Source: Streptosporangium saharense (GTDB lineage Bacteria; Actinomycetota; Actinomycetes; Streptosporangiales; Streptosporangiaceae). From it: a DNA stretch of 64,000 nucleotides. The notes below the pieces were generated by a model, which worked only from the letters and a program-made list of their open reading frames with translations, made no database searches and had not been told where the DNA came from. This document shows, piece by piece, positions 4,386 to 5,797 of the stretch; the stretch's first letter is position 1; each line of letters begins with the position of its first letter. The stretch covers positions 62,001 through 126,000 of the forward strand of contig NZ_JACHJP010000002.1 in the NCBI RefSeq assembly GCF_014203715.1, read 5' to 3'. The translations under genes were made by a program, and so were the position numbers.

Positions 4386-5564
4386 ATGGCCACGGGTGTC
4401 GAGCCGTACCGGATCACCACGGGTGGGGCGGCGCGATGGTATCGCCGGGATCCGCTGGGGTTCGTCGAGTGGGCGGCCCGCGAGCGGGGTCCGGTGTTCC
4501 GGCTCCCCGACGACGGGTCGCTGTGCGTGGCCGACCCGGTGGAGGCCCAGCGGGTGCTGCACGACGCCGAGGGCAACTACGATGAGGTGTCCGACTTCTT
4601 CCATGTTCGCGGTGGCCTGCTGGGGCCGAGGGCGACGCAGGTCGCGATCGGTAGGGCGGCGCGTACGACGTTGCGCGCCCACCTGGCCGCACGTCGCGAG
4701 CGGCTGCCCGCCATCGTTGCGAAGCTGGGAGAGGTCAGTGAGTGGCCTTCGGCCGGGCGCGCCGCCGCCTACCGCTTCCTCGCCGAGGCGCTGCTGCGCC
4801 CGGACACCCCGCCGGCGCTGCGGGAGCTGATGACGCTGGTGGTACGGCGCGGCGTCCTGATCCGTTCCGGTGGCCCGCTGGCCCGCACGGGGCAACGGGC
4901 GCTGTGGGCGCGCGTGGTCCGGGCGGTCGCCGGTGAGGTGCGCGCCCGGCGAGCCGACCCACGGCCCGGCCAACCCGGCGACCTGCTGGACGCCGTCCTC
5001 GGCGCAACCCCGCCCGATACGCCCGCCGCGCAGGTCGCCCAGGTGTACCTGCTGCTGTTCCGTACCTCGGTGGCGCCGGTCGGCCACGTCGTCGCCTGGG
5101 CGCTGCTCGCCGCCACGGCCGACGGCGTCGATCTCACGACGGTGCCCGCGGAGTCGGCCGTACGGGAGTCGCTGCGGCTGTGGCCGGTGGCGTGGCTGAT
5201 GGGCCGTCCGGTGCTGCGCGCCCATCAGATCGGTGACGTACGGCTGGAGCCGGGGGAGAGCGTGTCGGTCTGCGCCTACCTGCTGCACCGTGAGGAGCGG
5301 CACTGGCCGCGAGCCACCCGGTTCCGGCCAGATCGGTGGGACAGCCCCGGCCCCCGCGGCCCCTACCTGCCCTTCGGCGGCGGTCCGTTTGCCTGCGCCG
5401 GTGCCTCCGTCGCCCAGAGCCTGGCCACCGACCTGCTCGCCGCCGTGACCGACGGCGCCCGGCTGGAGGTGGACGGTGGCCAGGGACGCCCACATGTCGC
5501 GGGCATCATCACCCCTCCCGCCTTCCGGCTGCGCCGTACCCCCACGAGCCAGAAGAGGAGGTGA
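4386..5564 (+). CDS. Cytochrome P450, probable RiPP-modifying enzyme
   Basis: A 392-residue cytosolic cytochrome P450. The heme-binding loop FGGGPFACAG places the thiolate ligand at Cys337. The K-helix ExxR motif is Glu261-x-x-Arg264 in RESLRLWP, and an FRPDRW segment follows. The I-helix region reads LLFRTSVAPVGHVVAW (about residues 223-238) and lacks the usual AGxDT oxygen-activation motif. This divergence is seen in some P450s with unusual substrates. The ATG at 4386 has AGGCAGG five bases upstream; an in-frame GTG at 4380 overlaps that site. The stop is five bases before a 21-codon gene ending AWRIW, and no ferredoxin gene is present. This layout matches atropopeptide (tryptorubin-like) loci, where one P450 cross-links aromatic residues of a tiny precursor. 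Substrate assignment is inferred. Confidence 0.9.
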   Translation: MATGVEPYRITTGGAARWYRRDPLGFVEWAARERGPVFRLPDDGSLCVADPVEAQRVLHDAEGNYDEVSDFFHVRGGLLGPRATQVAIGRAARTTLRAHLAARRERLPAIVAKLGEVSEWPSAGRAAAYRFLAEALLRPDTPPALRELMTLVVRRGVLIRSGGPLARTGQRALWARVVRAVAGEVRARRADPRPGQPGDLLDAVLGATPPDTPAAQVAQVYLLLFRTSVAPVGHVVAWALLAATADGVDLTTVPAESAVRESLRLWPVAWLMGRPVLRAHQIGDVRLEPGESVSVCAYLLHREERHWPRATRFRPDRWDSPGPRGPYLPFGGGPFACAGASVAQSLATDLLAAVTDGARLEVDGGQGRPHVAGIITPPAFRLRRTPTSQKRR

Positions 5565-5569
5565 ACTCC

Positions 5570-5635
5570 ATGAGGAAGCTGATGCGCCGGGTTACCGGCC
5601 GCCGGGTCAACCGGCAGGCGTGGCGAATCTGGTAG
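5570..5635 (+). CDS. Short basic precursor peptide ending AWRIW (atropopeptide-like)
   Basis: A 21-codon gene that begins MRKLMRRVTG and ends QAWRIW before a TAG. AGGAGG (5556-5561) overlaps the end of the P450 gene and lies eight bases before the ATG, an ideal ribosome site, so translation is very likely. The first 16 residues are strongly basic (Lys/Arg) and would be the leader. The last five, AWRIW, parallel the tryptorubin A core AWYIWY (A-W-x-I-W), whose aromatic side chains are joined by a P450. Here the central Tyr is Arg and the final Tyr is absent, so only the two Trp could be joined to each other or to the backbone. A strong hairpin follows. Maturation would also need an unlinked protease. 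The core assignment is an inference from one motif. Confidence 0.8.
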   Translation: MRKLMRRVTGRRVNRQAWRIW

Positions 5636-5643
5636 GTTCTTCC

Positions 5644-5702
<59 letters not shown>

Positions 5703-5797
5703 GCCCCCGACGGTATGGCAGACGGCTGAACAGGCCGGGCCGCGCGTCGCCGCCGTGTGGACCCCTGAGACGATGCGGCCATGGTGAGGCGGTCGCG

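Follow-up and report, generated by a model that had tools for sequence, protein, structure and literature searches.

RiPPs modified by a cytochrome P450 are a known kind, and the closest described group is the atropopeptides. These are defined, in the available part of PMC11450843, by a P450 of the class, a KSLK leader motif and a Trp at core position 2. According to the available part of PMC12352619, the atropopeptide P450 ScaB forms a C-N bond between the two Trp of WxxW cores, and almost all engineered variants were cyclised, I25R excepted; these include the F24X series with X = R, i.e., a WRIW core.

Here, we analyse a P450 gene and the 21-codon gene that follows it within a 64,000-nucleotide stretch of Streptosporangium saharense DNA (the window). 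The short gene encodes a peptide ending in AWRIW. With a probability of roughly three in four, we propose that the two genes form a RiPP operon in which the P450 joins the two invariant Trp of the precursor into a ring. We thus read it as a minimal RiPP locus of the P450 type whose product most likely contains a Trp-Trp ring.

Architecture of the locus

The initial annotation described a P450 gene followed after five bases by a 21-codon gene with an AGGAGG, the pair being closed by a strong terminator (Table 1). The two genes and the ribosome-binding site are real, and the short ORF lies downstream of the P450 in all 16 close orthologs, the window included. The five-base spacing is correct for the window but is not general: it occurs in 5 of the 16 loci, and in the other 11 the precursor starts 17 to 64 bases past the P450 stop. 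The motif GGAGGTGA precedes the precursor start codon in every locus, and its TGA is the P450 stop in the same number, 5 of 16. Because this tight overlap is limited to 5/16 loci, translational coupling is not a conserved feature. The precursor start codon is ATG in 14 loci and GTG in two; in L021 it is fixed by an in-frame stop two codons before the ATG.

Table 1. Features of the P450-precursor locus, in window coordinates
Feature	Position	Strand	Remarks
TTGTTCACTTAACAA, imperfect palindrome in an AT-rich stretch upstream of the P450	4229..4243	+	Possible regulatory site (putative function)
Cytochrome P450, proposed peptide macrocyclase	4386..5564	+	Pfam PF00067, 66.3 bits; 15 orthologs at 74-86% identity; start ATG 4386, alternative GTG 4380; stop TGA 5562-5564
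AGGAGG ribosome-binding site of the precursor gene	5556..5561	+	Read directly; 8 bases before the ATG, runs into the P450 stop
RiPP precursor gene, MRKLMRRVTGRRVNRQAWRIW	5570..5635	+	ATG 5570 to TAG 5635, 21 codons, 5 bases past the P450 stop; leader 1-16, probable core AWRIW 17-21; in 16/16 orthologs
GC-rich hairpin, 14 pairs, 3' of the precursor gene	5674..5705	+	Probable transcript end; no T-run

The terminator stands in part. The hairpin is strong (-33.4 kcal/mol) and is the same or similar in 15 of the 16 family loci (not in L015), with paired changes between loci, e.g., GCGCC/GGCGC to GTGCC/GGCAC. However, it has no T-run and is missing from the output of a consensus terminator scan, and the 95 bases around it, taken together, fold only modestly better than shuffles (z -1.73). 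Past the precursor stop, the nine-base unit GGTCGCGCC occurs four times (5647-5682), the last copy being the first hairpin arm. An alignment with 12 other loci shows the extra copies in none of them.

TTCACT is present upstream of the P450 in 13/16 loci (not in L011, L022 and L023), and the TTGTTCACTTAACAA/TTCACT region is possibly a regulator or sigma-factor site. In many loci, TTCACT is followed by a stretch reading TTCCTG.TTTGGTGTCG.

The larger protein contains p450 as the sole domain found by Pfam, and no NCBIfam model reaches its cut-off against it. It retains ExxR and the Cys heme signature. Its I-helix has FRTSVAP in place of the AGHETT of ordinary P450s (L003, for example) and lacks the acid-alcohol pair, an absence that would fit radical coupling over oxygen insertion. 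Structural modelling of the protein from a two-row alignment failed, with a pLDDT of 34.

The P450 and the short ORF are always paired

The P450 was used to search 341 genomes from its bacterial family at 1e-20, with only a few candidates scored per genome, and matches were found in 26 genomes. Close orthologs occur in 16 of these, own genome included, the other fifteen being 74-86% identical to the window P450 (E at most 8.2e-178); the best matches in the remaining 10 genomes range from 8e-21 to 3e-24. The initial annotation had named loss of the short frame beside orthologous P450s as the result that would speak against it; the frame is conserved in 16/16, and its placement downstream of the P450 was borne out in every family locus.

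A DNA pattern for the precursor end was found in 5 of the 16 genomes of the window's own genus and in 9 of the 54 genomes of the genus of N. jabiensis. The genomes with this pattern and those with an orthologous P450 are the same set. Presence of P450 and ORF therefore agrees in 70/70 genomes of the two genera (14 with both, 56 with neither), a co-occurrence with Fisher p 5e-15 when genomes are taken as independent. The occurrence of P450 and precursor is patchy and always paired, and the agreement between genomes, together with the ORF in 16/16 orthologs, argues that the short ORF is not a chance reading frame.

Seventeen loci from 16 genomes were compared, with flanks that mostly span 1.5 kb (6 kb for L008). 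The P450 is present in all 17, and five genes that neighbour it in the window were found in none. Only the pair is thus conserved. The locus has what is looked for in a P450-modified RiPP, namely a conserved adjacent P450 (adjacency in 16/16) and a precursor divided into leader and core.

Precursors vary at one core position

The 16 precursors are invariant or conservative in the leader, invariant at both Trp and hypervariable at one core site. Residues that never change are the two Trp, Lys3, Arg6, Arg7, Val8, Thr9, Arg11, Arg12, Asn14, Arg15, Gln16 and Ala17, and leader codons 9, 11, 12 and 14-16 show zero change even at the DNA level. Position 19, directly after the first Trp, is F in nine loci, H in three, Y in two, W in one and R in one, the window genome. 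Position 20 is I in 15 loci and V in one. Eight of the 16 members encode AWFIW, and a ninth encodes AWFVW. The Arg that the initial annotation placed in the ring is therefore true of the window core, AWRIW, but is no family norm (1/16 genomes). Judged by this alignment, the pattern is that of a leader and a core with one free ring position, as in a RiPP precursor.

Related P450s also precede tiny aromatic peptides

A profile of 12 of the 16 orthologs was searched in 246 genomes of another genus (g70, probably Streptomyces). Ten genomes yielded 11 full-length P450 relatives, with E from 1.6e-136 to 2e-71; the remaining matches start at 6e-27 and include a fragment of the same type in G511. All 11 full-length relatives have a tiny ORF downstream with Trp near its end. 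One of them, L038, comes from another bacterial family; its P450 is 56% identical, and its precursor, MRKFIRRLQDVTAKQAWRIW, keeps the core AWRIW although the leader has diverged. The other ends are YWEPxVWL (two), SWFRAS (one), RRWYWY (four) and FWYLYHHI (three). On an Embleya plasmid, a relative P450 is likewise followed by a tiny peptide ending in IWNPKDPW. Among these 12 wider loci, GGAGGTGA ends in the P450 stop in eight, and RR stands near the peptide start in nine (8/11 in g70, plus Embleya), the three FWYLYHHI peptides being those without it. Wider sampling, of 396 genomes across the phylum (E 1e-20) and of 296 across the class (E 1e-30), added no full-length relative with a similar score; it yielded weaker P450s only, plus the fragment in G511.

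The three FWYLYHHI precursors match NF053510, the NCBIfam model of hyalucidin A precursors (cut-off 35 bits), with 41.3 (L044), 39.5 (L046) and 53.3 bits (L051). The same model had no match up to E 10 for the window peptide, nor did it match MRKLLRRVTGRRINRQAWFIW. In L044, L046 and L051, a further reading frame beginning MTTPQHP.DFL was read by eye downstream of the hyalucidin-type precursor.

We built two P450 trees, the first with 56 rows and the second with 33 of 62 rows. Copies, fragments and unwanted rows were dropped beforehand (L065, L066, L048, L036, L008, L059, L024, L029, L030 and L073), as were L077, L015, L016, L020, L012 and L014. In the first tree, the AWxIW family is supported at 100/98, its grouping with L038 at 100/98, and the grouping of these with the P450s of the RRWYWY loci and their kin at 100/99; at 94/83, this set is joined by the hyalucidin type and by PDB structure 9ULW. 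The window P450 thus groups with other P450s that each have a tiny aromatic peptide gene downstream.

Several further P450 loci have small ORFs nearby. In the same bacterial family, tiny ORFs, for example MTSVKRFLLNVRAAKAGAYWYYW and MTALKKFLRDVRAARTGAYPFYWG, are found close to other P450s (L032 466-537, L026, L024, L027 and L031), and these probably represent further P450 RiPP families. Tiny ORFs ending YWPYH.. or YWYH.. occur near P450s in L049 (725-814), L052 (752-838) and L035 (437-529). The WPYH of such ORFs has a Trp-x-x-His spacing like that of the Trp-His link reported for SroB (PMC11002830). Two tandem small ORFs (MSWFTTGLRALSGEMRARWHGYFVGYG.. and MSWVIRGARALSGELRARRNQYGDRYG..) precede a P450 in two places, one a g70 genome and the other a Streptomyces plasmid (L067 835-1070, and L072). 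M[KR]RAAYRIAAKLRIIDGARLTRPYIYY occurs beside near-identical P450s in four genomes of one genus (L025, L028, L033 and L034, about 1277-1361).

A proposed Trp-Trp ring

In the proposed pathway, the P450 and the 21-residue precursor would be made from one transcript, and the basic leader would dock on the P450. The enzyme would then oxidatively join the side chains of Trp18 and Trp21, giving a WRIW ring with loss of 2 H. By analogy with ScaB, the window P450 should be able to close such a ring. The bond would most likely link C7 of one indole with N1 of the other, the connection reported in cihunamide and in the products of ScaB. General cell peptidases would remove the leader and perhaps Ala17, if processing resembles that of atropopeptides. 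The expected products would be cyclic WRIW, with a computed [M+H]+ of 658.346, or AWRIW at 729.383 (both -2H). A single cross-link is assumed here; in 6 of the 16 members, a Tyr, Trp or His occupies the variable site and could itself react.

A different or additional chemistry is the first alternative, and we regard it as unlikely. The P450 could link Trp to the backbone or to the variable residue, hydroxylate the peptide, or make an indoline-type fusion as in hyalucidin A. Such chemistry would fit the hyalucidin-type loci: no relative with a named product is nearer, their two genes stand in the same order, and their P450s lie close by in the first P450 tree (94/83). Against it, the two Trp are the only invariant aromatic residues, and the variable site is Arg or Phe in 10/16 members, which is ill-suited to the usual Tyr, His or Trp cross-links. 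Furthermore, the window locus has a single P450, and the five neighbour genes do not recur in the compared loci.

Relation to the atropopeptides

A second alternative is that the locus is a genuine atropopeptide locus of the tryptorubin family with a degenerate leader and an inverted gene order. The core speaks for this: AW-x-I-W matches the AWYIW(Y) of tryptorubin, Trp stands at core position 2 in all 16 members when Ala17 is taken as core position 1. The bitryptide xWxxW core is likewise present in 16/16. The leader does not fit, for neither KSLK nor RSLK, ESLK, KSRK, KPLK or PSLK occurs in any of the 16 family precursors.

For comparison, loci ending W[FY]IWY-stop were sought in 220 genomes of the family f3 (probably Streptomycetaceae). 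Seven genomes have one locus each, with 26-residue precursors such as MKILFAIRDASFAKKSLKASAWYIWY followed by the P450; the leader motif is KSLK in five and QSLK in two. These seven controls represent the tryptorubin-like part of the atropopeptides only, ScaB, CihB and ScnB lying outside the comparison. The precursor is upstream of the P450 in 7/7 controls versus downstream in 16/16 family loci. Of the control precursors, two were tested against NF038372, the NCBIfam model of the tryptorubin family (cut-off 33 bits), and scored 47.4 (L076) and 59.6 bits (L079), whereas the window peptide gave no match up to E 10. No NCBIfam model matches the window precursor.

A search of 150 g70 genomes with a KSLK DNA pattern returned 12 matches in 12 genomes; the two loci inspected fall within a long reading frame, and neither showed a P450-like frame. 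A second KSLK DNA pattern had no match in 246 g70 genomes. P450s on plasmids of S. clavuligerus and of two Streptomyces strains were checked as possible atropopeptide loci, and no fitting precursor was seen.

The enzymes give a mixed picture. Identity between the window P450 and the seven tryptorubin-type P450s is 24-26%. Against a profile of the window P450 group, the controls score 72-80 bits versus 492-603 for full-length members, whose high scores are partly by construction since the profile was built from members of that group, the controls and other P450s being outside it. Six other P450s of the window genome score 87, 84, 49, 49, 38 and 32 bits, so that the controls outscore four of them and fall below two, and many P450s from other genomes outscore the controls as well. 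An R...AP motif in the I-helix is common to AWxIW and tryptorubin-type P450s and absent from ordinary P450s; as support for the proposed ring it is weak, because it is also absent in several nearer relatives (L039, L041, L044, L051 and L071). In the first tree, the tryptorubin-type P450s (100/100), on a long branch of 2.06, join the wider group further out, at 100/99. The second tree nests them within that group, where they stand between the hyalucidin type and all other members (90/85). An AU test did not reject a clade of AWxIW and tryptorubin-type P450s alone (p 0.218). The AWxIW enzymes may thus be cousins of the tryptorubin-type P450s, as far as these sequences can place them.

With KSLK absent, no NF038372 match, the precursor downstream and the P450 apparently in another group, the window locus would work like an atropopeptide locus but is not one by the published definition, and we consider true membership improbable. 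From the atropopeptide-type RiPP locus of the initial annotation, what holds is a minimal P450 RiPP with a tryptorubin-like core; membership does not. Since KSLK is absent, recognition of the precursor by its P450 must also differ from that in atropopeptides.

It is highly improbable that the short frame serves coupling or regulation while a small molecule is the substrate of the P450: the tiny size of the frame and the strong conservation of leader codons at the DNA level would fit, but the frame lies downstream of the P450 and before the hairpin, its invariant Trp pair surrounds a hypervariable site, and the tiny aromatic ORFs beside far more diverged P450s, with their hyalucidin matches, point to a substrate.

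Significance

The ring joining Trp18 and Trp21 remains our preferred reading. We suggest tentatively, at somewhat under even odds, that a separate branch of RiPP P450s, with the P450 first, a KSLK-free leader of 16 residues and no follower, reached the AWxIW core of the atropopeptides, so that two enzyme lineages make the same Trp-Trp ring, and that the loci with a P450 and then a tiny aromatic peptide (AWxIW, RWYWY, YWEPxVWL, SWFRAS and IWNPKDPW, with FWYLYHHI as a neighbour) form a RiPP class of their own. The AWxIW family offers a test of whether this ring arose in two enzyme branches. It also offers a leader of just 16 residues and rings that vary naturally at a single site (R, H, F, Y and W).

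This variant, with its gene order, leader, lack of a follower and own enzyme group, was not found in the literature searched, which does not include the main P450-RiPP surveys. The AWxIW family may already be listed in larger surveys such as those of Nam et al. 2023 and He et al. 2023. A literature search on AWxIW-type core strings gave no peptide paper, judged by titles. In the literature searched, a WRIW ring is known only as an engineered ScaB product, going by the available part of PMC12352619. According to the available part of PMC11450843, the AtropoFinder/CoreFinder search asks in round 1 for two neighbouring aromatic residues and in round 2 for KSLK or a listed variant. AWRIW would pass neither rule, and family members with F, Y or W would pass the first. 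Motif-based mining can thus miss the AWxIW-type group.

Comparison with known systems

Biarylitides share P450 cross-linking of aromatic side chains and a minimal locus with the window pair, and differ in having a five-residue precursor encoded by 18 bases, according to the available part of PMC13417212.

The hyalucidin A-type loci are closer. They too have the P450 first and the precursor second, the ribosome-binding site ends in the P450 stop in 3/3, and their P450s are 35-37% identical to that of the window. They differ in a 28-residue precursor ending in FWYLYHHI and in matching NF053510, which the window precursor does not. Hyalucidin A is, by the title of its paper, said to be a benzofuranoindoline made by tandem P450 catalysis.

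Among solved structures, PDB 9ULW is the only one matched below 1e-20 (E 1.3e-42, nearly full length), and a literature search found no paper on it. It is 28% identical to the window P450 and joins the hyalucidin-type branch (100/95), a place that is unsure because of its long branch and unusual composition.

The atropopeptides or bitryptides (tryptorubin A, scabrirubin and cihunamide) differ from the window locus in a precursor of 26 rather than 21 residues, in the KSLK motif, in precursor placement, which is after the P450 in the window, and in the end of the core, where the window precursor has no residue after the second Trp. They resemble it in that a single P450 accompanies a single tiny precursor, with one Trp at core position 2 and another three residues on. 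The likeness would extend to the product of most family members: scabrirubin is cyclic WFIW, the family core AWFIW is alike, and the mass that we computed for WFIW -2H, 649.3133, equals the value calculated in the available part of PMC11450843.
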